From a virus, in IMG/VR virus record IMGVR_UViG_3300044974_001280, positions 62,001 through 126,000 of that record: a stretch of 64,000 nt of DNA; one strand, 5' to 3'. The first letter of the stretch is position 1; every line of letters begins with the position of its first letter. A model generated the notes under the pieces. The model made no database searches and had not been told where the DNA came from. It was given only the letters and a program-made list of their open reading frames with translations. Both the position numbers and the translations under genes were made by a program. Shown in pieces: positions 29,301 to 57,517 of this stretch.

Positions 29301-30056
29301 AGATCTATCTCAGGAACTTATGTTGATGAATTTTCCACTGTTTCTTTGGATAGTTCAACGGTCCAATCTCCTCTTGTTTTTTCAGTCTATCCAAATTTAG
29401 ATCTGTTCCTAGCAGGTTCCGTAACAGGTCAAACCGGACCAACTGGACTTCCATATCCCCCTCTGGATGGATTTCCTTTTGTTTCTTTTTCTGAGAGCTA
29501 TAAGGCACCCAAAGGGATAGATCTAGGTAACATTATTTCTAGAGCTGGGTCCGGAGCTTGGACCTGGGCCGATGTTCATAATTCAGAGAGAGATTTATAC
29601 GTGCCCATGCTTTCCACTGTTTTCTTTTCAAACTACGGATCCCAAATTTTCGGAAAACAAAATAACAGATGGGTGCTGACCGACGCCAGAAATGGGAATG
29701 TTATTCTGGATGTTAAATTCACCCCTTATTTTATTTACACCTTTACCTCCTCGGGCTACTACAGTTTACAAAACACTGTTGAAGATGCTGCCGGCAACAT
29801 TTACGAAATTTCAAAACCTGCTTTCATCAAGGTTGTAAACCAATCAATTCCTAGAGCCGATGACCCTAACCCTTTGCTGGTAAATTCCGCCGACTATGGA
29901 TACATTAAACCCTCCAAAGAATTACAAAACCAGATTTGGGAACTCAATCAGGATCTTCTAGAAGAACAGATAGTTATCAGAAGAGAAAGCGCCATTCCTT
30001 TTGGCTCGGGACTGGTCATTAAAAGTGATGCTAATTCAACTTTTAGGGAAACCTAA
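26388..30056 (+). CDS. Tail fibre/adhesin-like protein with propeller repeats
   Basis: A 1,222-residue protein. The first ~380 residues contain propeller-type blades: AENIWAVGRDLSLFNGQDWE and, most clearly, GNYWLGTDSGLTYWDGKKFY, which follows the 'GNxWxGTxxGLxxxDG' repeat of Bacteroidota sensor kinases. The middle is Ser/Gly/Thr-rich with collagen-like bits (TGVTGPTGGPIG). The C-terminal 180 residues are Ig-like and share a pattern with the end of the preceding gp7-like protein. A surface-exposed tail protein, perhaps receptor-binding, is likely. Its stop overlaps the convergent phoH stop by 4 bases. Confidence 0.6.
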   Translation: MAFYILEAATDSAENIWAVGRDLSLFNGQDWEYFNSSNSVVPDNSPYYLDTRTISIDEYDVKWVGCAIAPSTSQVLVFSVANTDAATGSNWTLSDFNLPPGGLWEVGEIYASPYGDEVLAYITGLNGGAGTGATCTPGITGGYLWRYNKVLQEWSEVAPGYIWPTIYEIAAKGLDGVNWEYYLATSDGLQIIPPGTLDYEVLQDGTFFLPGLKKLNPYNSSVPTSQVYSISFDENGNYWLGTDSGLTYWDGKKFYNWTVPLNNSVTKVTSRPYGHVFFRCGDPFFDLSLSDGFFHFNGDSFSQFNTGNSALPSDRVVDLLLVHNKVEKNGLSVYPNDLWVVNGNNVTLFDYNLPHVYASSNYTGTTGWNFLYYTPGSTGATTDAANLPKTQRYDWVYPSWQGYDNQKIVLNHPGMDPRSLFLTTNFKDLANGQAENQNYWNWGSVPTYDQSLTAGRIPSSDWVVGITGSSSPFLTQPSISLTATTRYSHLNVVGGFMIGENAYLGASSNTEDFVLQNTNDTSFFPGNEFMGFLSFYTDGGQVQGAIPFRGANTKILDVKRSFDGKTVYALGIYNYFLEAGKFTWGSSYPTAGGMSVTGVTGPTGGPIGFSNMASPGATSDYSYPWILNAPTSATSGLYIPDFSVVNDTTAFFIAEIDYEIGNQISYGGIDFSSETASEVFCLKKFRYFPGASSDYDTQTGGPTGYFPSGVNYPGTASLAVGENSIRIMGNIQGGFATLARDYENILDAPSCPSFFFSSISGGSYTNSSFVLELNEDFSLRGVQTIGMTGPNSYTDTISTVPNAQTFLLSGTSTSDVSYGNLNLTHPNPGFCFPWILLSLPSFTGITGSFISNHTSNGSSFPSWRPTIGTFSSDSSYYAGFIYTGNAITTSGSTSLTFEGASGALSVGLLSISPGGIVRQESSYEILPSSYQAVDSSFLSGVQGLSTGDSYYLSVFYPTVPGVTGGGNHIFKRSISGTYVDEFSTVSLDSSTVQSPLVFSVYPNLDLFLAGSVTGQTGPTGLPYPPLDGFPFVSFSESYKAPKGIDLGNIISRAGSGAWTWADVHNSERDLYVPMLSTVFFSNYGSQIFGKQNNRWVLTDARNGNVILDVKFTPYFIYTFTSSGYYSLQNTVEDAAGNIYEISKPAFIKVVNQSIPRADDPNPLLVNSADYGYIKPSKELQNQIWELNQDLLEEQIVIRRESAIPFGSGLVIKSDANSTFRET

Positions 30057-30757
30057 AATTTTCCTTTGTTACTTCCGGTTCCTCCAGTTCCCCGGTACTT
30101 CCATTCCTCGTATCTTTTGACGATTTCTTTTAGAATTTTACTTCTGACGATGTCATCATCTGTAAAGACGAATTCTCCTACCCCCTCTACATCTCTTACC
30201 ATATCTACGAACATGGGCAAAGCAACTTTCTCGTATGAGATGTCGTGCTGAGTTACGTCCCCTGCTAGTAGAACTTTAGAATCGTTGCCCAGTCTAGAAA
30301 CATAAAGCATGAGTTGCTTCATATCACAATTTTGAGCCTCATCCAGAATCATCATGGATTTATCAAAGGTTGCTCCCCTGAGATAGGCTAGAGGTCTAAA
30401 TTCAATCTGCTTTTCAATGAAAAGCTGAGCTAATTTTTCTTTGGAAATGATTTTTTCCATGGTGATCAGAAAACTTTCCATGTAGGGACCTATTTTATCG
30501 TTGACGTCTCCTGGTAAAGAACCTAGTTTTTCCCCTGATTCCTGGATCGGCTTAGTGAAAATAATTCTTTCAATCTCAGATTTCTGTAAAAGCTTCAAGG
30601 CTGTGTAACAGGCAGAAAATGTTTTAGAAGTTCCTGCAGGTCCCCAACAAAAGGTTATGGTGTTGTGGATGATGGTGTCAGAGTAGAGTTTTTGCTTAGG
30701 AGAAAGAGAAATATCTCTAAAATCTTTGTTAACGAGTTTTGATTTTCCGATGGGCAT
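30053..30757 (-). CDS. phoH: PhoH-like P-loop ATPase
   Basis: A 234-residue PhoH-family ATPase on the minus strand. Walker A is GPAGTSKT at residues 39-46 (the usual second-last Gly is Ser). FTKPIQESGEKLGSLPG and YLRGATFDKSMMILDEAQN (Walker B with D139 and E140) are family hallmarks, and LAGDVTQ follows. PhoH proteins are common in phages; an RNA helicase or phosphate-stress role is proposed but not settled. It converges on the propeller protein and diverges from the gene at 30817, sharing a palindromic promoter-like element with it. Confidence 0.9.
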   Translation of the reverse strand: MPIGKSKLVNKDFRDISLSPKQKLYSDTIIHNTITFCWGPAGTSKTFSACYTALKLLQKSEIERIIFTKPIQESGEKLGSLPGDVNDKIGPYMESFLITMEKIISKEKLAQLFIEKQIEFRPLAYLRGATFDKSMMILDEAQNCDMKQLMLYVSRLGNDSKVLLAGDVTQHDISYEKVALPMFVDMVRDVEGVGEFVFTDDDIVRSKILKEIVKRYEEWKYRGTGGTGSNKGKF

Positions 30758-33965: not shown

Positions 33966-36900
33966 ATGGCAGGTACTCAAAATAGTGTCAGTTCTCTGGT
34001 AGCTCAGTTTCTTAGGCTCCAGAAAAACTCGATTGAAATCATCAATGGTCTTAACGAGGTTGCAACCTCCACTAACGACACAGTTCAAATAGAAATGTTG
34101 GACGAGGCTGGATTTCCCAGCAACGTTTCAATTCCGGCCTATGGTTATTTAAGGAGCCAGATCCAGAGACTAGATTCCAACATTCAGTCCTTGGCTGGGC
34201 TTGGCGATAATTTCTCAACGGTCAGAAACCCTGATGGGACTTATTCACAAATCTACAAATCAGAACCTCTCAGAGATCCAACCCCTCTGGTAAACTTACA
34301 AGTACCCAGCACTTTTTCTGCCAGGGACAACTGGTTTTTTGAAAGTTTTCTTTCTCCTTTACTCTACATCAGTCTGGACGTAACTGGGCAAATACCCGAT
34401 GACGCAGATCGAATTTTGGTGAAGAGAATCATCGCCAACACCGACACGGATGATAAAAAAGCCTATTTTGACACCAATCTGAAAGGAAGAAATGAAATTT
34501 CAGAACAAAATTTTATTTCAGAACTCACCGGAGCAGGCATCAATTATTTTGTGGACGAGGACATAATTCCACTGCCTCTTCGCACTATTAGAAATCAGGG
34601 CTCGTTTGGGGTTCTTTCTTTTTACGATGACACTGTTAGTACAACAGATGCTAACGGTCAGACTGTACAAGAAACGAGAAGGAATTACAAACTTAACTCT
34701 GTTCAGTACACCGATACCAGTACGGGAGTTCAAAACGGTAGAACTTTAAATGTCGGGAATGTTTTATTAACCTCAGATGGCACTAGATACGAGATTACTT
34801 CTATTAACATCAGTCAAACTTCGGTCCAACTTAAAAGAATTTCTGGCTATCAGCCTGTTCAAATAGGTAATAACTCCTTGAGCCTATTGTCTACCCAGTT
34901 CAATGCACGATTTGTAGACGTCAACGTTGGTTACGATGAGAGGCAAGGTGTTTTCTTTAAAAAGATCGACGACAATTACAATATAGTTGCTTCTAACTGG
35001 TCCCCTGGCATTGTTTTTTTCAGCAATGAACTCAGAATCAATACCACCAGCGGGGTTCAGACTCTCGAACAATTTTATTTGACCTCGGTGGCAGATCTGG
35101 GGCAGCAGCTACTGGCGATGGCAAAAGAGAAAAAAATCTCGGCCGTGAGCGGCCTCGTGCCGGAACCCCCTAGTATTGTAAACAGTAATTTCAAAGTTGT
35201 TCAGATTAACACTCAGCTAACCCAAGGCACCGATATTCAAACTCTGAATCAAAAGGTGGCTTTAAAAGCAACCCTCCAAAGTGAAATAGCTCAGCTCGAT
35301 ACGGCGATCAACACCAATCGAGCACAGATTAATAGTTTGAGTACTACCTCTGTAACTCCATTCTCTAAGACTTCAGGCAACAGTTTAACATCCTCAATCG
35401 ATACCAGTCTGAGAACAACAACCCAAAATTCTCAAGCTCTAACAGCCAACCTAAACTCTTTAACCCAACAAAGAGTTCAAAAACAGCAACTGTTGGCTTC
35501 TGTTGTTAGCGACATTAACACCCTATCTACAAGTACCCCTCAACTAACTGTAGATCCAAAGTATAGGGTAAGGGGATTTTGGGCTATTCCTCCTCCCAGA
35601 ATCAATCCTTCGACAGGGTCTCAACAAGTTATCCAATTTATTATAGAATACCGTTATTTATCAGATTCTGGTATTTCTCCGGCTGTTCAACAAATTAATT
35701 TCCTAGATAACAACGGTCAACAGAAAACAGGCTCCTTTAGTAATTGGAACAGAGTTATTACAGACATAAGAACAAAAATTTATGATCCTAACACTGGCAC
35801 TTATACCTGGGCTCCTGAATTAACTGATGATGCAGATGCCAACAACATTAACCAATTGGATATTCCTATCACCAGCGGAGAACAAGTGGAAATTAGAATT
35901 AAATCAGTTTCAGAGGCAGGATGGCCAGACAACCCCTTAACTTCCGACTGGTCAGATAGTGTTATCATCGGATTTCCTGCCGATGCCAGCACCCAAAACA
36001 CGGCTGCTGCGGTAACAACTAATTTAAAAGACGAGGCTGTTTTGGCAATCCAACAGGATTTGTCTTCTAAAGGTCTAGACAATCTGTTGTCAAGACAGTT
36101 CACTGCTGGATCAAAAGTTTTTGTTTTGGATACTCCTGCAATTGCAAGTGGATTTTACGACTCGAACGGAAATCCAGTCGACTTGTTTCAGAAATTAACA
36201 GATCTCCAGAATGAGATCGTTTCACTAAGAGCAACGATTGAAAGAAGTGTTGGCGTTCTTGAGGTTCAAATTGTAGATTCTGCAGGAAACAGCCAAATTA
36301 TTACAAGTGGGCAAACTATCAAACTTAATGCAGGTTACACTAACCAAATTTTTACTAGTCCTCTTACTTCTGATGCAGGAAAAATCGCTTCTTCTATTTA
36401 TCAGCTTAAATTGATTAACACAGCAGCTGGAATTCTAGAACTTTCTTCGGTTGTGCCAGGTGGACTTAACACAGTTGCTGGCTCTTCTACAACTTACTCT
36501 CTGCCAGAAGGTTACAATCAGAGTCTGAGGTACGGTGAAATTGGTATTTCTATTACATCACTAACTCCAGCCGATATTATTCCTCCTGGATCTACCGGCA
36601 ACGCCAACGATGAGTCTTTCCAGCAGCTTAGACAAGCTGCCCCTTATATGTCGGGTAACGCCAACAGCCAGTTTATTTACCCCAGATGGAAAAGTGTCGG
36701 TCTAGATCAGGATCTGTATGTTAGCACGCAGCCCTATTCAGCGGGTTACAATTACCAAGGAAATGGCCAGGGTCTACCACAGAATGGCTCATCCTTGATT
36801 CCCTATGACCCTTCCGTGTCCACTGTCCCTACAGCTTCAGGCACAGGTCCGGCGGTTTGGAATGGTAATTATACTGGCTCTACGGGTAGTTATGCGGGAG

Positions 36901-37541
36901 TTGGCGGTGGCTATCTGAGCGAATTTTGTATTCATAAAGATCACCCAGCTTTGGTGACAGGTCAAACTTTTACTAATTTAGTTAAACCCAATTTTGCCGG
37001 TGGTGTGGTAGTGTACCCGGCCTTCAGACAATCCGATTATTTCTATTATGATGCGAATCTACCCAACTACTGGAAGCAGATTTCATACAGTCCGGTTACA
37101 GATGATTTTGTACAGGGACCTACTGCTACTAGAGAAGATTCTATGTTTCCTTTAAAGTGGGGTTTTGAAAGTTCTGATGAATGGCTGATTGGCAGATATA
37201 GTTGTGGCTCTTATTTCTTTTTAGGTCCCGTAACTTCATCCGTAGTTCAGGTTCAAGGTTCAACTTCTTTGGCATTCCAGCCAGTCCAGCAGGGTTCAAA
37301 TAATGCCATTATTATCCCTATTATCTTTCAATTTAGGACAACTGATAAGTTAGGTTATATTGGTGGATTTAGGGCAGATGGTAATCCAACCAATATTGTT
37401 TATACAAAAAAAATGGGCATTGATATTCAGGTAAAAAATCAAAGTCCTTTTTCTTTCGATCTAGAAGCGACAGGAAAATACAAGAATGACACCCTTTCTT
37501 CTCCTAATTTCTCTTCGCAAGGTGGTTTGAACGTTGGATAA
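33966..37541 (+). CDS. Large virion structural protein with fibronectin-like domain
   Basis: A 1,191-residue protein. The N-terminal helix (SSLVAQFLRLQKNSIEIING) and the following region look like an anchor to the tail. A helical stretch near 415-520 may form a coiled coil (LQSEIAQLDTAINTNRAQIN). A fibronectin-III/Ig-like domain follows at about 530-680, ending in VEIRIKSVSEAGWPDN and SDWSDSVIIGFP. The C-terminal ~300 residues are Gly/Tyr-rich (GSTGSYAGVGGGYLSEF). No catalytic motif is seen. It probably links baseplate to fibres. A GATAAATAG element overlaps its end. Confidence 0.55.
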   Translation: MAGTQNSVSSLVAQFLRLQKNSIEIINGLNEVATSTNDTVQIEMLDEAGFPSNVSIPAYGYLRSQIQRLDSNIQSLAGLGDNFSTVRNPDGTYSQIYKSEPLRDPTPLVNLQVPSTFSARDNWFFESFLSPLLYISLDVTGQIPDDADRILVKRIIANTDTDDKKAYFDTNLKGRNEISEQNFISELTGAGINYFVDEDIIPLPLRTIRNQGSFGVLSFYDDTVSTTDANGQTVQETRRNYKLNSVQYTDTSTGVQNGRTLNVGNVLLTSDGTRYEITSINISQTSVQLKRISGYQPVQIGNNSLSLLSTQFNARFVDVNVGYDERQGVFFKKIDDNYNIVASNWSPGIVFFSNELRINTTSGVQTLEQFYLTSVADLGQQLLAMAKEKKISAVSGLVPEPPSIVNSNFKVVQINTQLTQGTDIQTLNQKVALKATLQSEIAQLDTAINTNRAQINSLSTTSVTPFSKTSGNSLTSSIDTSLRTTTQNSQALTANLNSLTQQRVQKQQLLASVVSDINTLSTSTPQLTVDPKYRVRGFWAIPPPRINPSTGSQQVIQFIIEYRYLSDSGISPAVQQINFLDNNGQQKTGSFSNWNRVITDIRTKIYDPNTGTYTWAPELTDDADANNINQLDIPITSGEQVEIRIKSVSEAGWPDNPLTSDWSDSVIIGFPADASTQNTAAAVTTNLKDEAVLAIQQDLSSKGLDNLLSRQFTAGSKVFVLDTPAIASGFYDSNGNPVDLFQKLTDLQNEIVSLRATIERSVGVLEVQIVDSAGNSQIITSGQTIKLNAGYTNQIFTSPLTSDAGKIASSIYQLKLINTAAGILELSSVVPGGLNTVAGSSTTYSLPEGYNQSLRYGEIGISITSLTPADIIPPGSTGNANDESFQQLRQAAPYMSGNANSQFIYPRWKSVGLDQDLYVSTQPYSAGYNYQGNGQGLPQNGSSLIPYDPSVSTVPTASGTGPAVWNGNYTGSTGSYAGVGGGYLSEFCIHKDHPALVTGQTFTNLVKPNFAGGVVVYPAFRQSDYFYYDANLPNYWKQISYSPVTDDFVQGPTATREDSMFPLKWGFESSDEWLIGRYSCGSYFFLGPVTSSVVQVQGSTSLAFQPVQQGSNNAIIIPIIFQFRTTDKLGYIGGFRADGNPTNIVYTKKMGIDIQVKNQSPFSFDLEATGKYKNDTLSSPNFSSQGGLNVG

Positions 37542-37590: not shown

Positions 37591-40500
37591 ATGCCAAATT
37601 GTTATAATTACTTAGTAAGTCAGGTAGGTTTACAAGCAGCAACTTATGATTACCAAGATTGTGTTGATGGGTCAACCGAACAACTTAATGTGGGAGCGGG
37701 TGCAACCGCTTCAATTTGTGCTATAGAAAATTCTGTTTTATTTATTATTGGTGAAGAAGGTGGGGTCTCACAAGAAAGCTCTTGTGGTTCGATTACCCCA
37801 ACTCCCACCCCCTCTATTACTCCCACCCCTACGCCTACACCATCGGTAACGAGTACCGTGACTCCAACCCCTACTCCAACTCCGTGTCTTACTTCGGCTC
37901 CTTGTTATGTCTATGAATATGAAAATTTCGACAATTTTTCAGTTGATCTAGAAAGTTGTTCCTGCCGACAGGAAGTTCTAAGCTTTGGACCTGACCAAGG
38001 ACTTACAGGGGGAACAGGATCTTTTGGTTTTTTTATAGGGGTAGCCCAGCCTGAAGTAAAAGGAGGAACGGCCGATTTCATCGGATCCACGGGACCCATT
38101 CAGAACAGTGTTGTCCCCGAAGATGCATGTTACTGCATGCAAGTTGTTAACATCTCTTACACCCAAACAGGATTTATTTCTTATACGGGTTGTAACAATC
38201 TGACAATATCAACGACGCTCAGCCCTAGAACAAGGATTCAGGTTTGTTATAAGGGGATCAATGCTGCTTTTAATGTAATTCCTGTCCCTGGATATAATTC
38301 AGGTTGTTGGAATACCGTAGTAGGATGTTCCCCAGGGGGTTTTTGTGGTTTTGAATGTAGATGTTATGAGTACAACAACACAACGGGAAATACTATTGCT
38401 GTCAATTATATTGATTGTGAAGGTGCAGTTCAAGCCATTGATCTTTCCACAGGTGATTCGGGAAGGTTGTGTGCCCGGGCAATTGTAGATAACGTTTCTA
38501 TTTTTACTAATGCCACTACTTGCGGATACAACAATTCTGCTCCTCTTTGTACAGGAGGAGTCTGTCCTACTCCTACTCCTACCCCAACCCCCACCCAGAC
38601 TCCTACCAACACTCAGACCCCCACCAATACTCAGACCCCCACCAATACTCAGACCCCTACCAACACCCCGACTCCTACCAACACCCAGACTCCTACCAAC
38701 ACTCAGACCCCCACCAATACTCAGACCCCTACCAACACCCCGACTCCTACCAGCACCCAGACTCCTACCAACACTCAGACTCCTACCAACACTCAGACTC
38801 CTACCAACACTCCAACCTCGAGCGTTACCCCTACCAACACCCAGACTCCTACCAACACCCAGACCCCTACCAACACCCAGACCCCTACCAACACCCAGAC
38901 TCCTACCAACACCCAGACCCCCACCAATACTCAGACCCCTACCAACACCCAGACTCCTACCAACACCCAGACTCCTACCAACACCCAGACTCCTACCAAC
39001 ACCCAGACTCCTAACTCAACCCCTTCTCAAACACCTAGCGTTACGCCCAGCGTAACTCCTACTGTTACCCCTACCAACACCCAGACCCCTACCAACACCC
39101 AGACCCCCACCAATACTCAGACCCCTACCAACACCCAGACTCCTACCAACACCCAGACCCCTACCAACACCCAGACTCCTACCAAAACTCCAACAAACAC
39201 CCCCACAAAAACCCCTAATAACACACCATCACAAACACCAAGCGTCACCCCAACCAATTCACCCACCCCTTCAAATACTCCAACTGTTTCTCCTTCCCCT
39301 GCCGGATCCACTGGATGTCCTCCTCAAGACATTTCTTGGAGTTTTTGGAATTTAAATAATATATTTGATAGGGTAGGTAGATTTTATGAAAATAACAATA
39401 CGGGGAACAGTCAGATTGCCACTGTTACCGTTTCGTCCACTCAACCCAACACTTCCTATTATAATGTTACAAATACCCCATATTTTGCTTTACTTTGTCC
39501 TAAAAATCCCCAGCTGACTGAAGCTTTGGGCCTGAATGTAAATCAGGTAACGGGAACGGAAGTATACACTTTCACTTTCGATAGACCAGTTACGGATCCT
39601 TCTCTAGCAATTTACTCTCTTGGAAGTGGAGGAACAACGGGAGTTGCTCAATTCACCAGTAACTTAGAAATTGTCTGTGTTCTGCAGGACCCAACCCTCT
39701 CTTTCCCATTAACTAAAACTGGTCCTAACGAAGTAACGGGAAATGAAAGTTTTGGAACTATTTATTTTCCAGGTACTCACACATCTATAAGTGTATCGAT
39801 AACTAATGCAATGGCTGTTAATTTCGTTTGGGGTATTTGCACTCAGGAACCCCCACCTTGTGAAGTTGATCTGATTATTGCATACGACATTTCAGTTTCA
39901 GCTGGCACTAACACCCCATACAATGGATCAATCATTGCAGAAAGACTAGTTTCTCTCCAGATAGTCAATAATTTTATCAATGAAATAAATTCGGGTAAAG
40001 TAAGAGTTGCAGCTTATTCTTGGTCAGATGTGTCTCCTGACCCCCAAATTCAGCCTTCTCTGAACAGTTTGCAGTTTTCATCTAATTATAACCAGATCTA
40101 TAATTATTTCTGCCAACAGTCGGTTTCTTATCCTTCCTGTCTGGACTATTCAGGGGTTTCTTTTCCTGGTGGTACCAATCCAGGATTGGGGATTAATACA
40201 GCTATTAGCCTGGCAACTTCCTATGGTAGACCCAATGCCAAGAAAGTTCTTGTTTTAATAGTTGATGGAAATCCGAGTACAAATCCTAGTTCACCTAATG
40301 CTTATCTTTTACAGCAAGCTACACTTTTCAAACAGTTGTCTCTTTATGGCATGCCTGGAACTTCAGAGATAGTTGTCATTGGAGTTGGTGGGAATTCTGA
40401 TGATCCAAATTTTACTGCTTGTTCGGTTAGCATTTCAGGAATTCCTACAGATTTGTGCTATTCATCTGCCTTATATTCCCAAGTTGCTTCCAATGACCCA

Positions 40501-43500
40501 ATCACAGGGAATCCAATGATGATCAACCTGGTGGGTCCAGGCCCAGGTCCTTCTTCCATCCAAAGTCTTTATAACAATACCCCAGGCCTACAAACTATTT
40601 ACAACGCCGCTCTTCAAGCTACTAATTTTATCTGCCCCAATAGCCCCTGTACTCAGGCTAATCTTTTCGTCAATGGGGATTTTCAAAATTCTGTAGCTTC
40701 CCAAACGGGTGGTTCTGTAGTAGGTTGGTCCCTTAGCAACGTGGATGTTAGAAGCATTAGATCAGCTTATTTTCCTAATTTCTTTGGCCCGAATTCAGAC
40801 AACGTCTTTATTAATTTATCCTCCTGTGCAGCCTTTGGGACCGTTCAACAAGCTTTAACACTCACTCCTGGTACTGTCTATATTTTAAGTTATAACATTG
40901 GCGCTAATAAACAAAATCTTGCTGACAATTCTTCGAGAACTGTTCAGGTTAGACTAAATGGGACTTTGTTATCCACTAATAACATACTCCCTAGTGCAGT
41001 AATCGGGACTACTTCCAATAACCCTTTCTTTGATTTTGGATGGGAAACTAAATCTGTTATTTTTACTGCTACCCAAATTTCAAATACTATCCAATTTAGG
41101 GGAAGCTCTCCAAATACTTGTTTCGGACCGGTTTTAGATAATGTTTGCTTGGTTGAGTCCAGTGCTTATCCAGTTCCATCCCCCACTCAGACTCCCTCAC
41201 AAACACCAACTCCCAGCATAACCCCGACAAACACCCCAACTCCTTCTACCACACCAATCATTTGTAATTGCTATAATTACTATAATGATAATGATCCGTG
41301 TCCACTTCCTGTAGTTGCCTGGTCCACTAAGCCTCTATCTGATCTGGGCCCTGGCGATTTTATTTATAACACCCCGAATTTAGCAGATCCTTTTAGCAAC
41401 TCTGCCAATTCTTTTTATGCTTTTGGACAGGACCCGTGTGATTTAGAGCCCCGCTGGCTTTTGCTAGGAACTGCATCGTCGGGACAAATTTCACTGTCTG
41501 GTGTTTGTGATGTTACCCCAACTCCAACCCCCTCCTCAACTCCAACCCCAACTCCTTCCGTATCTGACAATTTAGGAGTGTATACGGTGTTCATGAATAT
41601 CGAAGGGGCTTCGAGTGAGTCTTTTTCAGGAGAACCTGAAATACCAGGACCTACTCAAACCGCTAGTTCAACCCCAACCCCGAGTATCACCGCTTCTCCA
41701 ACCCCAACTTCGAGCGAGACCCCAACTCTAACTCCAACCCCAACGGAGACTGGAACCCCGACTCCAACCCCAAGTGAAACTGCTACTCAAACTCCAACCC
41801 CGAGCGAAACTGGTACCCCGACTCCAACTCCAACTAATAGTTTAACCCCTTCTGAATCTGCAACTCCTTCTCCAACCCCTACCCCAACGGTTACCCCTAC
41901 TGTATCCCCTACTCTTTCTCCTGTTGGTACTTGGTATCCCTTATACGGTAGGGGTAACGGGTACATCACTAGCCAACAAGCCTGTGATGCACATCTAATA
42001 GGTGAGCCTTGCGAGGTTTCATATGCCGATTGCGATCCCTCGGTAAATTTTGTTTCATTTTCTGTGCTTCCGGGGGAAAGTGGAACTTTCTGTGCCCAGT
42101 GGATAGTTTCAGATCCTTGTGATATAGTTTCACAGCAAGGAGGATGCACCAATCCTGGAGGAACTGGGTATATTTGCGCACCTCCTCCTACCCCTACTTT
42201 AACTTCTACTAGTCCTGCCCCTTGTTGTATAACTGCTAATAAATTCATTTCTCCACCCTTTCCTAATAACGTTTTTCCTAGTACAAGTTGGTTGTATAGA
42301 TCAATTAATTGGAATGGTGTTACTATTACAGCTTCAACTACAACACCTAATGCACTGAGAATCGCGGCACCCGAACCTACTTACGGTTGCGACATTCAGC
42401 AAATTATTTTCGATTCCTATAATAACAAATATTCAGGATTGATCGATACTTTCTACTCTTCGCCGGTTAATGCTAATTATACCCTGAATTTCAGCCAACC
42501 AATTTCTACAATTACTTTAAGGATTTTGTACCTTAGTGTAGATGAAAACAGTAATTCAGAGTTTATCTATTTTACAACAAACACTGGAACTCCTAGTCTA
42601 GAACCAGTTATTTGGTGCGGTGATAGATCAAGTTTTGAAATAGGAACCAATGTAAACGGTAGCTATATAAAAAATCTCTTAACAACCGTTCCTGGCAATT
42701 ATGACGATGAGGTTTCTCTGGTTGTGGAAATTAAGAACCCCTTGGGCTTCTCAAGCCTAACCTTAACTAATGTTTGGCCACCTAATCCAGGCAGCAGCAG
42801 TCCAGCGGGAGTTGGTTTTGATATTTGTGAGTGCTCAAACCCTACTGCCACTGTAACCCCGAGTGTCACCCCTACTAACACCCCGACACCTAGTATCACT
42901 CCTACTAACTCCCCAACCCCTAGCATTACTCCTTCTATTAGTGTAACACCGAGCGTCACCCCTACTAACACCCCGACTCCGAGTATCACTCCTACTAACA
43001 CCCCGACCCCGAGTATCACTCCTACTAACACCCCGACCCCGAGTATCACTCCTACTAATACTCCGACCCCTAGTACCACCCCTACCAACACACCAACCCC
43101 GAGTATCACCCCTACCAACACACCAACCCCGAGTATCACCCCTACTAGCACCCCGACCCCGAGTGTTACCCCGAGTGTTACCCCTACTCCTATTATTTAC
43201 GATTGTATCAGATGGTGTATCGCAAACACAAATTCGTATCCCGTTACTATCACTGTTACCAGATGCGATGGCACTTCACAACCTTTTTCCCTTTCTGCTT
43301 TTTCTGAAATCTGCAATATCTGCCTCAGAAATGTGACCACCATTGCGGGTGTTATAGCAACCGATACAGGTAGACTTTGCACTTTCTTACCCAAACTTTT
43401 TGATTACAATTCTTCCTTTGGAGTTCTAAGAACAAATCCAAAATTAACAGGAAATGTGAAATTAACACTGGACTCTAATGGTTCAGTTTGGATGAATTCA

Positions 43501-46500
43501 ATGGATGCAAATCCAGTTCTTAGCGATCAAAGATTCAAAAAATACCGAGTTTCGGGACAAAACGCCTATTCTAAAGATCTGTACAGATTCTTCATGAACG
43601 GAACCGTGCCAGAAAATGTTATTTTTGAAGTTGCAAAACTTACTGATGGGGAGGACCGGCCAGTGGAAGGCTTTAGCTCTCAGTACGATTTCTTCTATGG
43701 CTCTGGTGCCTCTACACTTGTTGATAGAAATTACAACGAGAATTTCCGGTACTTCCAGCCATTGTGGTTGCGGGATGAGATTCCAGATTTCTTTGTCATC
43801 TTTAAAATCCCGGGGCCTTTGAGTTATCCGTATTCGACAAACCAAACCGAAATTCTGAGCGGGACCCAGTACAAAATTATTCAAGACGTCAATTCACCTG
43901 ATCCTTTTGTCATCTCTTATGGGGTTGATAATTTTGCCCGGCCTATTTTGTATAGGGCTGGAGAATTTATGGTTGGAAATTCTGTTTACTCAACCTACGA
44001 AATTGTATCAGGATCTGGTAAAGTTGTGCTAATGAACGAGACTCTTTTCCAGCCTGAAGTTGATGACGTTAATTCATACTTCAACAGTAAAATCCTTCCA
44101 AACGCGGCTGCTATAGCAACTTTTGATCTTCGAGAGGACACCGTTATAGGTAAATATATTAGATCTATCATTAACGATCCTGGATTTTCTTCAGCTCCTT
44201 TGGATTTCTCCTATCAGCTTAATGCCTTTACTTACTACCAAGGAGTAGATATCAAAACAGGTAGTTATAGTAAAAAAGGGGAGTTGATGTACGATTTCTT
44301 GATTTCCAACAACTCCACCCCCCAGATAGATTTCGAGAATTATGTGACAGGAGGTTTTGAGAGAAATGGGATCATAATTCCCAATTTATTGAATTTAGAA
44401 TTTCTCTTTAATGATCCTGATTCTGATTTATATTCCATCAACAGATATTTTGGTCTGTATGTTTCCAGAAATGATTTAGGAAGTTTTAAATTGAATGGAG
44501 ATTTCTTCTATCAATATCGTAACCTGTCCGGCAACAACAATCTACCTAAACCTTCCACCAATAATGTCGGATATGCTAGTAGTACTGACCCTAATTATTT
44601 GAGTAGCACGACCGGAGTCAGACTTTTCTATCAAGAGGCAAATTCTTGGATTCCTGGCTCCTATGATGTAAATGTTTTAGAGCCACAGAAGCTTTTCTAT
44701 ATCACCGATAAAAACGACAAATTTTATTCCCTCCTCAGAAATGAAAATTACGATTCCACCACCCAAACTTGGTCCAACAACACCCCGGTAAGTGGTCAAT
44801 TCGGACCTCTTTTGCCTTCTGGTAATTTCGGAACTGAGTCGAATATGGAAATGAAATCCGGTAATTTAGTTGTGTTCAATAGGCAACTAAATCTACTTGA
44901 TTTTACCGGCCCCAATGAAAGAATAGGTGGTTTTTCGGGTTTTTTACCTGAATCTTCCGGTCACGCCAACATTAATATCCAGTTTTTATCAACTTTTAAT
45001 AGCAGTACTCCAGTTACCTTCAAGATCATTTGGCCGAATGGAACTAGAGGACCTTTAAATGAAAAATACGACCTGATTCAATCTTCCTTATTGGGAGGCA
45101 GCGTTCTCAATTGGCAGGCTGGAAGTTCTTATAACAACGGCAACACCCACTATTTCAATTTCTCTCAGGGCCAAACGTCCCAAGTCGCATCTTCGTTTGT
45201 TCAATGTGTTCTCTCCATCAGCAGCACTATCTGGGATTCTGCTAATTCTGACAATAACGCTATCATTAGAGCCAGAAACAGCGGAGCGAATTACAACACA
45301 GATTTTAAGATTGCAGTCTTTTCTGACTATGATTCTTTTGAGTCTTCTTATGCCGGAATTTGGTCCAGCACGGCCGGCTATTCCGCAGGTCAAATTGTCT
45401 CCTATTTTAATGTCTACTACACAGCTTCTTCTGCCATTACAGCCCCAAGTTCCGGCAACACGAATCCTCCTCCTACGGAGGATAACACTTGGCAAAATTA
45501 CTTCACCTTTACAACTTCAGGTCTGATTAAAATTGAGAACTATGACGTTTCAGCTTTAGATAGAAATCTGAATTTCGTTGGTGGTACTGATTTCTCTAAA
45601 TCTAGAGTTGCCTTTTCAATCAACGAGAAAGATAAAATTACCCCTGGCAAATGGATCGAAGTGGAAGGAGGTAGGGGAGTGGTAGGTTCCGTTTCTAGAA
45701 TTTCCTCGGTTACCAGATACGTCGACCGTCCAATCTACAATAATAATCCCTCCTTGACTTCGGGCACCGTGACTGAATTCAGGGGCTACAATGAATTTTT
45801 GGTCGCAAGTTTGGAAGATACTAAAGCTATTATCAGCCTGGGTAGTGATGGCAATTTCAATGTTTGGGATGTAGCTACTCTCTACTCAGGTGCTTTCAGT
45901 TTCTTCGATCTGAAAGATTTTGACTACGATTTTCTATCCTCTAAATACGGAGAAACACCAACCCCTGAATTCCATCGATATTTCCAACTTGTTCCTGATC
46001 AACCTGGTCAAATCGTAGAGGGTGTAAAATACATCGTAAGGAGTGGTGAAATACTGGTTGATAAAGGTTCACCCACGGAGAGGATTTTAGGCCCAGGCTC
46101 TGCCTTTATTGGCACTACGGTCAACTATTTCCAGGATATATTATTCTCTGAAACTGGAACTCTTTCTGTCGTGTATCCAGCAGTTTTCAGCCAGGTTGGT
46201 TGGGTAGACCCTCAGACCCCCTACCCTACAACAATTGTCCCCGAGCAAAATCTGAACTCGTTTGAGGGTTTTTACGGAATTCAATCCATCTCTAACGAAA
46301 TGCCGATCCCAAATCCTCTTGAAAAGGCAGAGTTATTTGAATATGGTAAGCTTGAAACAGAATACCAGTATCTCTGGGAAAACTTCACCCAGACCCGGGC
46401 CAATTTTTCTAGAATAGTGCCTTTCGTGAACAAATGGGGATTCTTAGGTGGCACCGACGCCAGGGGCAATGTTTACAGACTGAATTCTTCTCCTGCATTC

Positions 46501-48927
46501 AGCCCCACCAATTTTTCCCCTAGTTTTCAGAAAGAAAGCCCAGATCCTCGATATCTGACCCACGAGTGGTTGATTCTTCAGGGGGTTCCTCCTCAGTTCC
46601 CAATTGATGATATTTCAAAACAGAAAAGTTATCTGCCGGGCGAGGTTGATTTTCAGAAATTGCGTAGTGGCAATCCTAATTACGCCCTGTACTTTAATTC
46701 ATTCTTTACTGTCTCAACCGCAGATTATCCAGCTCCCTACTACAGCCTGAAATATCAGGGGTACGAATACTTTAGCAACCTCAATTTCAATTATGCCACC
46801 GGTTTTTATGAAACGGTCTTTAGGGGAGTAAAGATAGTACTGAAGAAAAGAAGCAGTGTTACGAACCCCAAATCAGAGCTTGAAAAATACATTATCAACT
46901 ACAGAGGGTATGAAAATTACAATTTCTCTGCCATCCTCAAAGTTGTGCCGGAGGATGATTCTGAAATCCAAAGTCCAGTTAGGTATGAGTTTATTGAAAA
47001 CGTGCAACAAAAATGTGTCCTCTTGGTAGTGTACGTCGTCATTAAAGATTACAGAGCTTTACCTTTGGGGTCGACTGGAGGAACTGGAGGAACACCCTAC
47101 CTGGATTATCTGCTGATGTATTGCATGAGTGACAAGAAAGAGGCCACGGACGTTGGAACAACAGGAGCTACGGGTCCTACTGGATCACCTCTCTACGATA
47201 TTGCTGATATCAAGTTGTCTGCGGCCTTGAATCTCTCCACTACTTCAGACAGTTCAGTTACTCTATTTTCTAATTCTGGAAAAATCTTCACCATTGAAAA
47301 TCCAGATTTTGACACCGATTTAAGAGAAGAGATCAATTTGTTTTACCCAATAGGATCTACCGGGTCCGTCTCCGATACCGGACCTGGTAGTTTCTACGTC
47401 CCCAGTCAGTCTTACACTTACCCCTGGCCAGTTGGAAGATCCCAAAATTTAGTTGATTTTCAAGCTATCGAGCCAGGAGCCTATGAATTCCAAATTCCCT
47501 TTGCGTTCTCCTCGCCAGTTACAATCCCAGTAGGACCAAGATCAGCCTACGCTAATTATCCAGTTTTTCAAGTAGACGGGGGAGAAGATTATTTCGACTT
47601 TATTCTAAAAAGAATTTCCCTATCCCAAATTTATTTGCGTGTTAATAACGAAAGCCCCTATATTAGTTATACTACTTACGATTGGGATCCGATTGCTGAA
47701 AGTACCCTGGTTTCTCAGAATTCTTTTCAAGTTTCTTTTACTGAGCCAACTGCTCTCTATAAACCAACTGGCTTATATCCAGTCAAGAGCTACGAAGGGC
47801 CTCAAACTCTAGGCACTAGTGTTGTTACCAGTTATCAGATTGAAAACGGTGGTTCCGAGCTGGCCAGTGATATTTTAAGGTATGGAGGCGCATACGAACC
47901 TTTGTTTAAGAAGGTGCTCAGATTCAAGGGTGATAAAACGGATTCAATCTCCGGCAACCCAGGGGCAGACATTACTTTCAGAAACTGTACCTTTGCCCCC
48001 GAGCAAGAAGGATTTGGTCTCATAGAAAATCTGGCTTTTTCTAAAGTCTCTCTGGATCAAAATATTCTTCAGGCTTCTCAGAATTTGCCACAAGGACCGG
48101 TGTTTCCTTTAGTGGGTCAATCACCAATTTCCTACAAGAATTTCTCAGTCTTCCTTTCCAGCTGGGATCCTGGCTACTACAATCTTTGGACCTCGGCTAC
48201 AACCCAGAATCCAGTTGCCGGAACTAGATCGATGAAGGAGAACAAAAGTTTTCTGGGTTCAAAGATGATGCAGACCCCCTACACTGTTACCATCTACACT
48301 TTCATCACTCTAGAACTGGTGAGAACATCAGGCAACACCAATGTCGATGCGATTAACACTCAGGCGGTTGCCGCGGTTCCTGCCATTCAAAATTTAAACC
48401 CCTCCACTTCTAACACTGGGGTAGGACAATTAGGAAATTATCTCAGTAATGTTGATTTACCCGTTTTCGATCAAGACATCTTCCCCCAAGTGGAAATCTT
48501 CTGGCAAAGGAACGAAATTTCCAACACCGTCATCGGTTCTATCAGATTGGATAGGATCTTAAGAAGGTATCTGTTAAATTCCGGGGTTAGCCAGGTTTTC
48601 GTCGACAACATGGTGAGCGAGTTTGGATTGGGGAATCCCAACAGCATCTACGACGATATCAACACCTACATTGACCAGAATATAGTTCCTATCTACGAAG
48701 GGATTACTTTTGATCTGTTTGTCAAGAAGACAGGAGAGGCGTTAACAACAACTGAATTATTGGTAAGAGGAGATCTTATTAATCCAGATCGGATCAGATA
48801 TGGTTACTATCAACAAAATAACTACAGATTAACTAAAATCACCGATTTGATTTACTCTTTCGAATATCCTCTAACGGTCGGTCAAAATTATTCCTTGACT
48901 TTCTCCTTCAGAATCCAGAAAATTTAA
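37591..48927 (+). CDS. Giant modular virion adhesin, 3,778 aa, with vWA domain and Thr/Pro linkers
   Basis: The largest gene in the window. The C-terminal core (about 1934-3778) looks like a conserved baseplate or fibre-base protein, beginning [19 protein letters not shown]. The first ~1,930 residues are a chain of modules joined by mucin-like Thr/Pro linkers. Cysteine modules lie near 3-65, 98-255, 256-320, 1224-1309, 1447-1533 and 1870-1933. A von Willebrand A domain lies near 759-1017 with a full MIDAS: D766-I-S768-V-S770, T862 in GGTNPG, and D892 in LIVDGN. A galactose-binding/DUF642-like domain lies near 1022-1190 ([11 protein letters not shown], then GWSLSNVDV). Beta domains lie near 573-757 and 1544-1750. 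Metal-dependent adhesion to the host surface is the likely role. Base composition and Cys content differ between the two halves, suggesting module acquisition. Confidence 0.75.
38566..39300 (+). repeat. TPTNTQ mucin-like repeat array
   Basis: About 30 copies of an 18-bp unit encoding TPTNTQ (variants [18 protein letters not shown]), in two blocks separated by a Ser/Val-rich spacer near 39020-39070, covering about residues 326-571 of the giant protein. The 18-bp period keeps all three plus-strand frames largely free of stops. Confidence 0.9.
41651..41925 (+). repeat. Thr/Pro/Ser/Glu-rich linker repeats
   Basis: A low-complexity linker of the giant protein made of TPTPS, SETPT and ETGTP units between two cysteine modules. 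It differs from the TPTNTQ array by regular Glu residues. Confidence 0.75.
42841..43190 (+). repeat. [10 protein letters not shown] linker repeats
   Basis: Tandem 30-bp units encoding [10 protein letters not shown] with variants ([20 protein letters not shown]). This is the last linker before the final cysteine module and the conserved core of the giant protein. Confidence 0.85.
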
Positions 48928-50453: not shown

Positions 50454-52562
50454 ATGTCTTTCAATTCAAAATACATTTTTCCAGGGGACGACAAGAACGA
50501 AATCCTGTCCAAGATTAATTCTAATTTTGCCCAAATCTATTTTAATGCGATAGGAAGTCCAGGACCGTTGGGAGAATTTGGACCCACGGGTATGATTGGA
50601 CCTGTGGGATTAGACGGTTTACCTGGAGCGACAGGTTCGCCTGCAGCAAGGTGGTTTTTTTCTCCTGAGCCCCCATTATCCACAGAATCTTCAACTGATG
50701 ACATCTGGGTTAATATTGGGATCACTGGATTTCAAAGTGTCTATTTCTATGATGGCACCAATTGGGTTGATACTGGAGAAAGTATTCTGCAGGACTCTGA
50801 ATTTGAAGCAATCACCGGAGTATCGGGACCAGGTGGAAGCACAACTCATAATAGCATTGTCTTCCCAGGACCTTCGGCCTCTGATTACAGCCTAGTTATT
50901 TCTGATGCTGTTGGAACTACCTCCAATGTCAATCCGAACCTCTCGAAACTAATGGTAAGTACGGCTCCTGTGGTTAATATAAAAGTTGGTTCTTTTTTGG
51001 CAGGAGGGGTTGTTTTTTATGTTAATCCTGCTGGTAATGGGGGTTTGGTCTGTGCGCCAAACAACCTGAATACTACTTATGCTTGGGGATGCGCTGGAAC
51101 TAATATTTCTGGTACATCTTCAGCCTTAGGTACAGGAGCAGCAAATACAAATTTGATTTTATTTGGGTGTGCTACTAGACCTATTGCCGCCAGCGTCTGT
51201 GCAGATCTTTCTCTTAATGGATTTTCCGACTGGTATCTTCCTAGTTACGATGAAATGTTTTTAATGTATCAAGAACTACAGCCTTTAGACCCTGCTTCTT
51301 TTGCTGGTACTTTTTGGACAAGTACACAGTTAAACCCCGGACTGGCTAGTGTTTTAAATTTTGGTGTCTCAGGATTTTCAAATAAATCAAATTCCAGACT
51401 GGTGAGGCCAGTAAGAACTTTTACATTAAATGACATTGGAACTGTTCAATATCCGATTTTAGGGTTCGATAAAACCTTTGTAGGATCTGTCTCCATTCCA
51501 TCTTTTAATTGGACTGTTCCAACTGCAGAATCTTATGATATCACTTTTAGCAATCCGGGAGAAACTAGAATTTTATTAGGAACTACTGGTAGTTTTTCTG
51601 CTACCGGGGGATCTGGGGAATCTGTGATACTAGCCGGCAATACTTTTGTGCAACTGACTTCTCAAAATCAAATCACTTTTGAATCTTCTACGGGAGCCAC
51701 TGGCAGCTTGACCCTGGCTACACCCTCTACGATTTTGATGAATTCTGCTAACAAGATACTGACTAGTAACAGTTTGTCGTATCAGAATCTGGCCGATTCA
51801 TCCGGTCTGACCGCAGATGCCAGCACCTTGATCGACGTCTCGGGAAATCAGGGATTGAATATTCAAATTTTAGGTTCTTCGACCGGAACCCCTATTTATA
51901 CTTTTAGAAATCCTGCGGGGTATAGAATTTTAGAAAGTAGAAGCAACAATCTAACGATGATTGGTGAAACTGGCCCCTCTGGTTCCGCTTCTGGCTGCCT
52001 AGTGAAGAAAATAGATGTTGTTGATTCATATAGTCTGAATGGAAGAAGCGGAAGCCAATTTTCTGCTAATGGATTTTTGAATAATTATGCTTCATTAGAA
52101 ATAAATGGTAATAATTCTGATGTTATTTGTATTAAGGCTTATTACGCATACTTGTTAACTCCAGATGCAAACACTCCCACCGCAAACGGAGAATACTATT
52201 CCATTTATTTACAGTTAAGTGGGTTTCAAAATATTACAACAGTTGATCCTGTAAATCCTGGTATGGGTATTTCTTTTTCTAATACATCAAGGAGAATTTT
52301 CGACATTTTTCTAGAGGATGAGTCGGGAATTTGGCCGTCTGGCTACATATCTTTTGGTGGCATTAGAACTGTTTATGCAGGTGGAAGTTCCTCTGTATCT
52401 ATTAGTAATTCATCTTTCAGATGCTACCATATTAGATTAATTTTTATAAACAACGAGTCTATCTTTTATCAGTTTAACTATTCGGGCACTGCCAATAGAT
52501 GCGGTTATATCCCTTATGTTTATACCAATCCAGTTTCTGGAGGGGGCGGAATTGGTAGCTAA
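50454..52562 (+). CDS. Collagen-like tail fibre protein B with inserted DUF1566-like lectin domain
   Basis: A 702-residue paralogue of the preceding fibre. It has the same docking motif (LSKINSNFAQI), ten Gly-X-Y triplets (34-63) and a similar head (ARWFFSPEPP, then DDIWVNIG). Unlike its paralogue it carries an extra domain at about 171-331: GGVVFYV, then LNGFSDWYLPSYDEMFLMYQ, then FWTST and RLVRPVRTF. This matches the DUF1566/Lcl C-type-lectin-like fold found in collagen-like adhesins. After it the protein rejoins its paralogue (YPILGFDKT against YPLLEFSKT). The C-terminal ~170 residues are a separate globular domain. It is probably receptor-binding. Confidence 0.7.
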   Translation: MSFNSKYIFPGDDKNEILSKINSNFAQIYFNAIGSPGPLGEFGPTGMIGPVGLDGLPGATGSPAARWFFSPEPPLSTESSTDDIWVNIGITGFQSVYFYDGTNWVDTGESILQDSEFEAITGVSGPGGSTTHNSIVFPGPSASDYSLVISDAVGTTSNVNPNLSKLMVSTAPVVNIKVGSFLAGGVVFYVNPAGNGGLVCAPNNLNTTYAWGCAGTNISGTSSALGTGAANTNLILFGCATRPIAASVCADLSLNGFSDWYLPSYDEMFLMYQELQPLDPASFAGTFWTSTQLNPGLASVLNFGVSGFSNKSNSRLVRPVRTFTLNDIGTVQYPILGFDKTFVGSVSIPSFNWTVPTAESYDITFSNPGETRILLGTTGSFSATGGSGESVILAGNTFVQLTSQNQITFESSTGATGSLTLATPSTILMNSANKILTSNSLSYQNLADSSGLTADASTLIDVSGNQGLNIQILGSSTGTPIYTFRNPAGYRILESRSNNLTMIGETGPSGSASGCLVKKIDVVDSYSLNGRSGSQFSANGFLNNYASLEINGNNSDVICIKAYYAYLLTPDANTPTANGEYYSIYLQLSGFQNITTVDPVNPGMGISFSNTSRRIFDIFLEDESGIWPSGYISFGGIRTVYAGGSSSVSISNSSFRCYHIRLIFINNESIFYQFNYSGTANRCGYIPYVYTNPVSGGGGIGS
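50553..50642 (+). repeat. Ten collagen-like Gly-X-Y triplets
   Basis: Encodes ten consecutive G-X-Y triplets (such as GPLGEFGPTGMIG), residues 34-63 of fibre protein B. The number equals that of fibre protein A. Confidence 0.85.
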
Positions 52563-52571
52563 TTTTTTGTT

Positions 52572-53285
52572 GTGGAAAAAATTTTTTACGAAGAAGGAAA
52601 GGAATTCAGGTATCAAATAGGGGAGGTAATCACCACTTGGCCTTGGCCCATGCTAACTTACGCATCCGCTAGAGAATTTTTATTAGATCCTGATTGTCAG
52701 CAAATTTTTTCTAAATATCAAAACGTCTATATTTACGGGCATTTCCTGTGGAAAAATTTTCAGACGTGGGATCTTGATTTGGGTTTGGCCTGTGATTTTA
52801 ATATCGCGGATTGGTCACGAATTTCTGCAGATCTCCACAAGCTTTACAATCTAGCTCTAAATAGACACTGTCTTCTCGTGGATATCACTGTTTCACATCT
52901 CAATGTTGCCTGTCTTTTACCAACCAAATCCGATCTAGTTGAACACAATCAAAACACACCAGCTTCTGAATGGAATTTTCCCAGAATTAGCCCGCCCCTG
53001 CAGGGAAAATATTCCCATAAATATGTAAAAATAAGCAGAATGGAAAAAAAGATAGGGGACACAATTCAAGTTTTTGATTATAGAGATTCCCCCCGAACTG
53101 CACAAAAAACTTCCCTCTTATTTGGTGAACATCTGGTTATGATTGATTTTTCTGAAGTTGATTTACACGATAAAATCATCAAAAGGATAGCAAATTCTGA
53201 AAAAAATCTTCTGATCAATTTCATGACAGTTTCTGATTTTTTAAGTCTAACCGAACTAGAATTTATTCAGATCCAGAATTACTGA
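52572..53285 (+). CDS. Nucleotidyltransferase-fold protein
   Basis: A 237-residue protein with the signature of the Pol beta-type nucleotidyltransferase superfamily: YIYGHFLW with G56-H57 in the place of Gly-Ser/Gly-Gly, nine residues later D67-L-D69-L, and a third acidic residue at D104 in LLVDITVSH. These would bind two metals and NTP. The target (RNA, protein or small molecule) is unknown. The second motif residue is His, so activity is uncertain. It starts with GTG, ten bases after the fibre stop, and ends the fibre block. A second such protein lies at the end of the window. Confidence 0.6.
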   Translation: MEKIFYEEGKEFRYQIGEVITTWPWPMLTYASAREFLLDPDCQQIFSKYQNVYIYGHFLWKNFQTWDLDLGLACDFNIADWSRISADLHKLYNLALNRHCLLVDITVSHLNVACLLPTKSDLVEHNQNTPASEWNFPRISPPLQGKYSHKYVKISRMEKKIGDTIQVFDYRDSPRTAQKTSLLFGEHLVMIDFSEVDLHDKIIKRIANSEKNLLINFMTVSDFLSLTELEFIQIQNY

Positions 53286-53311
53286 CCCCGTAGTTCGTTT
53301 TTTTCTGGACC

Positions 53312-53321
53312 GAATATATAC
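53312..53321 (+). promoter_or_regulatory. Putative late promoter element, GAATATATAC type
   Basis: GAATATATACAGA starts here, 20 bases (from the end of the core) before the ATG at 53342. It is identical over 13 bases to the copy at 48941. Confidence 0.45.
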
Positions 53322-53341
53322 AGAGGATTTAAATTTTTTTT

Positions 53342-53587
53342 ATGCAAACCCCTTTGACCCAAGATGAAATGATCTCGGCAGAAGATCTAAAAATACAATT
53401 CTCTAGAGTGTTAGAAGACATCTCTATTGTGGATGGTAAAATCAAGAATCTTCAAACAGAGGCGGGTCATCTCCTGACCAAACTTGAAAATTTAAGAAAT
53501 TCAGAAAAAGCTTTTATGACCAGATTGTCCGATAAATATGGATCGGGTGCTTTGGAACCCTTCAAATTAATCTATCACCGTGAATAA
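53342..53587 (+). CDS. Small coiled-coil protein, 81 aa
   Basis: A short, charged, helical protein (EDISIVDGKIKNLQTEAGHL, then LLTKLENLRNSEKAF) with heptad-like spacing and no signal peptide or membrane segment. Its end overlaps the GTG start of the following membrane-anchored gene by 8 bases, so the two are co-translated and may act together. Family unknown. Confidence 0.55.
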   Translation: MQTPLTQDEMISAEDLKIQFSRVLEDISIVDGKIKNLQTEAGHLLTKLENLRNSEKAFMTRLSDKYGSGALEPFKLIYHRE

Positions 53588-56956: not shown

Positions 56957-57517
56957 ATGGCGATACTAAATGTCAGATCGAATAGTTTTTATTTCAATTT
57001 CCCGAAAGGATTTTTTCCCGGCTCGGTAGAGACCAAGTGGGTTGATTATCTGAAAAAACAGCCCACCCCCTACGATACCCTGACCTCTTATATGAACAGC
57101 AGTATTCAATCTGTCTCTTTTCCGACCATGAACATTGATTTAGTGTCACAAACCAGAAATCTCGGCAAACAGATTAATTACCAGAGTGCAACCCCTGTGC
57201 AGGATTTATTCTCCAGAGATTTCTCTGTTTCTTTTAGGATCAGTGAAGGATTTGTGAATTACTTTATCATGTTGGAAACTGTCTTAGATAAACTGGCCTT
57301 TCAAAACGATGCCCTGTTCACTCCTATCTTACCTCTTCGAATCTTAGATAATGAGGGGGGAGTAGTTATTTCAGTTCTTTTTAAAGAAGTAACTCTTACC
57401 TCAGTCAACAACATTGATTTAAATTACACCGCTAATGCCCCTACAGTTTCAACTTTTACCGTGGGCTTTAAATGTAATTTTATGGAACTGAATTCAGAAG
57501 TCCAGAAAACAAATTAG
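56957..57517 (+). CDS. Tail tube protein, gp19-like (probable)
   Basis: A 186-residue beta-rich protein with a tail-tube layout. An N-terminal 'FYFNFPKGF' strand is followed by SIQSVSFPTMNIDLVSQTRN, a helix-containing FVNYFIMLETVLDKL, LRILDNEGGVVISVLFKEVT, and the final FTVGFKCNF strand. T4 gp19 has 163 residues, so the size is right. Hexameric rings of this protein would form the DNA channel. Sheath, tape measure and head genes are not in this window, so the call rests on sequence pattern and size. Confidence 0.6.
   Translation: MAILNVRSNSFYFNFPKGFFPGSVETKWVDYLKKQPTPYDTLTSYMNSSIQSVSFPTMNIDLVSQTRNLGKQINYQSATPVQDLFSRDFSVSFRISEGFVNYFIMLETVLDKLAFQNDALFTPILPLRILDNEGGVVISVLFKEVTLTSVNNIDLNYTANAPTVSTFTVGFKCNFMELNSEVQKTN

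Follow-up and report, generated by a model that had tools for sequence, protein, structure and literature searches.

VWA domains have been reported in the fibres of extracellular contractile injection systems (eCIS), in the eBAP4 group (PMC12923769). In jumbo phages a vWA protein of the MoxR-vWA type has been described as an assembly co-chaperone (PMC7824862), and vWA proteins of the CobT-like or CobST type are known from tailed viruses (PMC8651126). The protein described here carries a vWA-like domain in a different setting, the N-terminal half of a phage tail-operon protein.

The window, i.e. the whole stretch of 64,000 nucleotides that was analysed, corresponds to bases 62001-126000 of a virus record of 230,445 bases. 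It holds at 37591-48927 on the plus strand an open reading frame of 3,778 amino acids with an ATG start, as had been claimed by an earlier reading made from the letters alone (the sequence-only reading). The features of the frame are the following, in coordinates of the window and residues of the protein.

37591..43389, plus strand: lineage-specific N-terminal extension, residues 1-1933, not in other close relatives of the core
37591..37776, plus strand: small Cys module, copy 1, residues 1-62 (internal profile)
37885..38565, plus strand: Cys-rich modules, residues 99-325, including two more copies of the small Cys module
38566..39309, plus strand: long Thr/Pro linker, residues 326-573, of length-polymorphic 18-nt (TPTNTQ-type) repeats
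39310..39861, plus strand: module M4, residues 574-757, with Cys near both ends
39865..40635, plus strand: von Willebrand A-like domain, residues 759-1015 (PF00092, E=8e-5; MIDAS residues)
40639..41154, plus strand: DUF642 / choice-of-anchor C galactose-binding-like domain, residues 1017-1188 (PF04862, TIGR04362, phrog_18458)
41155..41256, plus strand: Thr/Pro linker 2, residues 1189-1222 (composition)
41257..41505, plus strand: Cys-containing module M5, residues 1223-1305 (sequence)
41506..41955, plus strand: Thr/Pro linker 3, residues 1306-1455 (composition, repeats)
41956..42834, plus strand: Cys-containing modules M7 and M8, residues 1456-1748
42835..43194, plus strand: Thr/Pro linker 4, residues 1749-1868 (30-nt repeats)
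43195..43389, plus strand: last small Cys module, residues 1869-1933, its end matching the LCxxxPKLFD leader of the sister clade
43390..48924, plus strand: conserved tail structural core, residues 1934-3778, standalone in relatives
45328..45504, plus strand: CBM5/12-like (chitin-binding-type) module inside the core (Pfam, Foldseek)

A baseplate-wedge-like gene (20028-21758) lies upstream of the frame and a tail-tube-like gene (56957-57517) downstream; two collagen-like fibre genes adjoin it, one flanking gene is tail fibre-like, and the gene order around the core is the same in the loci of the relatives, which form a syntenic operon. Since the core is flanked and adjoined by such genes, its role in the tail is likely, and the core is likely to be a part of the contractile tail. 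Some further genes were recorded. The plus-strand tail operon contains at 30053-30757 a PhoH-like gene of opposite (minus-strand) orientation (Pfam E=1.6e-56); a minus-strand gene of about this size is found at the corresponding place in the relatives. The gene at 17339-18730, in the structural gene region, encodes a putative amidoligase domain (PF12224, just over the cut-off) and has a weak pentapeptide-repeat match besides. The ClpA/B-type AAA+ ATPase of this phage (L116:830-3301, minus strand) has a Pro/Thr/Lys-rich stretch near its C terminus. In L014 (4997-5600) the homologue of the window gene 31735 is broken into two open frames, by a frameshift, an insertion or perhaps a sequencing error.

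The conserved core of 1,845 residues that the sequence-only reading had claimed was borne out by its relatives. The IMG/VR relatives are 43-71% identical to it, nearly all of them across the full length, and membership in the tail core family is borne out by full-length homology (58-100% over 1,845 aa) and by syntenic neighbours. More distant homologues were found by tblastn in Tenacibaculum, Lak and other huge phages; those of PTm1 and pT24 were recognised by fold with Foldseek, and both phages are among the BFVD matches to the core model, as is a protein with the name Gp265. Judged from these likenesses, the core is a protein conserved in the tail operons of Bacteroidota-type jumbo phages, and the hosts of the characterised relatives suggest a Bacteroidota host for this phage as well. 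The AF2 model of core residues 1-1190 was of fair quality (pLDDT 73) and gave no useful PDB match in Foldseek; no solved baseplate protein matched it usefully. Thus, of the earlier claim that the modules were built onto a baseplate protein, the fusion of extracellular-type modules to a conserved contractile-tail-operon protein stands, while the baseplate part found no useful fold match in the PDB. The CBM5/12-like module inside the core was matched by PF02839 with E=2.7e-4 (21.3 against a cut-off of 26.2) and by 2d49 in Foldseek, with a TM (target) of 0.65 over 47 aa.

In order to compare the starts of the core proteins, the complete core loci were reduced to less than 93% identity, which left, the window apart, 43 distinct lineages. 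The start of the protein lies at most 18 residues from the first residue of the core in 42 of them, so that core relatives without the N-terminal modules, for which the sequence-only reading had proposed a search, are the rule. The only exception, L108, is distant (28%) and has an extension of 323 aa in which the Thr/Pro and Cys features are missing. In L056 and L094 (core residue ~476) and in L066 and L068 (core ~1228-1258) insertions of about 100-120 residues were observed; together with the extension of L108 they indicate that the core seems to tolerate added domains. In L099 (near 10,520) the core homologue is broken into two open frames, where again a frameshift, an insertion or a sequencing error may be the cause. 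Pfam VWA and DUF642 were found in none of the records of 37 other relatives, many of which are partial genomes. Among the sequences searched, the 1,933-residue extension is restricted to this phage lineage.

The extension was seen in five contigs of this phage from different assemblies (the window, L005, L012, L013 and L015), two of which end inside it and hold it partly. L012 is identical to the window over the whole gene. L005 is longer by 72 nt (4 units) in the Thr/Pro array and has one mismatch to the window over 24 kb, and the length of the repeat tract varies by whole units between the contigs. Low-complexity repeats are prone to misassembly, and the end branch of the window core in the core tree is long (0.39); both would fit a fused gene that is an assembly chimera or a functionless, decaying accretion. 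However, the same joint is present in the five contigs, so the extension is not an assembly artefact, and the frame is open throughout the 5.8-kb extension; we regard this explanation as highly improbable. Internal initiation at the core was also considered and rejected: there is no ATG, GTG or TTG at the joint, and the closest GTG in frame lies within a module, 19 codons upstream.

The Thr/Pro linkers described by the sequence-only reading are present and sum to about 591 residues of the extension, with few charges; the longest tract, 38566..39309, holds 33.6 copies of the 18-nt unit (TRF). A Pfam match to Cementoin was rejected as an artefact caused by the Thr/Pro repeat. Of the 1,933 residues of the extension 60 are Cys, against 4 in the 1,845-aa core, a number that is similar to that of the core's relatives (mean 4.8), and Cys makes up 0-1.1% of the neighbouring tail proteins. 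The small Cys module (C...Y.DC.G...C) occurs in four copies in the extension, and Cys stand just ahead of the vWA-like domain and at its end. Having Cys near both ends, several modules would resemble disulfide-stapled extracellular domains. Four of the modules (M4, M5, M7 and M8) belong to no assigned family; M4 and M8 had no match in Pfam or NCBIfam, and no copies of M8 were found in IMG/VR outside this phage at the sensitivity used.

In case of the vWA-like domain, D766, S768, S770, T862 and D892 were all found at these positions in the MIDAS order. DxSxS occurs three times in the 3,778-aa protein, and the motif by itself is not specific; when the domain was shuffled 100,000 times, 508 of the shuffled sequences (0.5%) showed D.S.S...T...D with a vWA-like spacing. 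Pfam VWA (PF00092) matched the isolated domain with E=8e-5 and 23.4 bits against a cut-off of 23.8, and in the genome-wide search, where the neighbouring stretches were included, it reached 24.1 bits, over the same cut-off. The match lies in the later half of the domain, where T862 and D892 are (GGTNPG...), while the DxSxS half raises the score by only about 2 bits and gives no match by itself. Thus the complete MIDAS claimed earlier holds in that all five residues are present, its DxSxS half being recognised from motif and spacing only. The AF2 model, made from the single sequence without an alignment, had a pLDDT of 45, with alternating strands and helices; Foldseek matches of this low-confidence model (methyltransferase, Rossmann) were meaningless and were set aside. 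The alignment of E. coli YfbK to the domain was not significant (z 1.7). In our judgement residues 759-1015 are very probably a vWA domain.

The DUF642/galactose-binding-like domain proposed by the sequence-only reading was recognised by PF04862 with E=2.4e-8 and 34.3 bits, over the cut-off of 27. NCBIfam choice_anch_C (TIGR04362) matched with E=6e-15, under the model's own whole-family cut-off, and phrog_18458 matched the region with E=1e-6; by these profile matches the DUF642 assignment is secure. Scans of 84,980 prokaryote genomes, of IMG/VR and of phage records, which find close relatives only, gave no copies of the vWA-DUF642 pair beyond those of this phage. The plasmid search with the pair gave matches in DUF642-type stretches only, and the annotated ones were toxin genes.

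The vWA-like domain could also mean that the N-terminal half is a fused assembly scaffold or co-chaperone that is cut off or lost by the time the virion is finished, as vWA is an assembly co-chaperone in other jumbo phages (PMC7824862). Against this, no ATPase is fused to the protein, and the records of the related phages, which presumably assemble without it, contain no vWA. DUF642 and long Thr/Pro stalks are characteristic of proteins on display and not of chaperones; we consider the assembly role very unlikely.

In the core tree the window is sister to the clade of L033, L034 and L085 with moderate support (85/84). The proteins of this clade have a Thr/Pro-Cys leader of 15-18 residues, e.g. 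MSTPSPTPTYVPLCEPPPKLFD, in which LCxxxPKLFD matches the end of the window's extension. The leader would be either what is left of an extension that was lost, or the kind of leader in which the extension has grown. In a part of the sister clade (L004, L011, L016 and L023) the small Cys module is present in the downstream collagen-like fibre gene, with two copies in the fibre of L004 (13539-15605). The collagen-like fibre of the window (50454-52562) has an Lcl_C (C-type-lectin-like) match at residues 245-321 (E=1.4e-6, below the cut-off). A diversity-generating retroelement, considered for this neighbouring Lcl_C, was rejected, as there is no reverse transcriptase in the 230-kb record. A segment of about 1 kb beside the fibre gene (52526-53516) is 93% identical in DNA to L004, L016 and L023, while most of the flanking tail proteins are 43-81% identical between the two lineages; this difference points to a recent exchange of the segment at this locus, as judged from identity levels. 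The 237-aa gene within it had no match in Pfam or the phage database. The fourfold-site GC was 0.28 in the extension modules and 0.40 in the core, with a window mean of 0.41 (s.d. 0.08); the lower GC of the modules is compatible with a later arrival, although it is not proof of it.

The fusion, its lineage restriction among the sequences searched, its module content and its repeat-length variation are direct observations. The explanation that we consider probable is a lineage-specific adhesin array, fused onto a conserved tail protein and displayed on the tail; the reported VWA domains of eCIS fibres (PMC12923769) speak in its favour. In this lineage only, ~1,930 N-terminal residues would have been added to a structural protein that is conserved in the contractile tail. 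The core would anchor the protein in the tail or baseplate, and the stalks, with a reach of up to ~180 nm if fully polyproline-II-extended, would hold the modules off the virion. Ahead of commitment by the dedicated fibres, the modules might then touch the surface of the host or its glycan coat in a reversible and multivalent way; going by domain type, the vWA may bind an acidic or protein ligand via a divalent cation, and the DUF642 and the CBM5/12-like module may bind glycans. Several points speak against such an array: the vWA model is of low confidence (pLDDT 45), a Cys-rich protein would have to fold in a reducing cytoplasm unless its disulfides form after lysis, and known vWA proteins of tailed viruses are also assembly co-chaperones (PMC7824862) or CobT-like (PMC8651126). 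The more specific form, an integrin-like, cation-dependent and disulfide-stapled array of variable reach, built from domains of secreted proteins on the free N-terminus of the tail protein, the modules of which are shuffled with the fibre genes of the sister lineage, is possible but rather doubtful.

The glycan-binding-type domains (DUF642, and CBM5/12 in the core) and the long flexible stalks would suit a decoration of the virion whose targets are in the environment (mucilage, particles, dissolved glycans) rather than the host receptor, and which keeps the phage near its hosts, and the fact that one lineage has the extension while its relatives manage without it agrees with this. However, a gene that lies in the tail/baseplate operon and adjoins collagen-like fibre genes, one of which carries the small Cys module in the sister clade, agrees at least equally well with a contact to the host. 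Environment binding in place of receptor binding is unlikely in our view.

In the searchable papers, few of which were from subscription journals, we came across no description of a conserved phage tail protein to which vWA or DUF642 is fused. The value of the case lies in a natural experiment, the same tail protein with and without an adhesion array of 1.9 kilo-residues in phages that are otherwise syntenic, while at this joint the sister clade keeps a Thr/Pro-Cys leader that is short; the origin and the function of adhesion modules accreted on phage tails thereby become directly testable.

Compared with known systems, the Tenacibaculum phages PTm1/PTm5 and pT24 and the Prevotella Lak phages share homologues of the core, which align to it over part or most of its length. 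LR756500 has a core homologue at 26% identity (tblastn), next to which lies a homologue of the window gene 33966-37541, but its protein begins at the core, without the N-terminal modules. The DUF642 / choice-of-anchor C proteins share a domain match over the Pfam cut-off, whereas here the domain is embedded in a phage protein. The MoxR-vWA and CobST-type proteins of jumbo and archaeal tailed viruses are likewise virus-encoded and have a vWA domain, but they belong to chaperone or chelatase-type pairs and are not fused to tail structural proteins. The VWA fibres of eCIS (PMC12923769) are similar, by description, in placing vWA and other adhesion domains on phage-tail-derived particles; there, however, these are tail fibre genes, while in the present phage the modules are fused to the N-terminus of a conserved tail protein.
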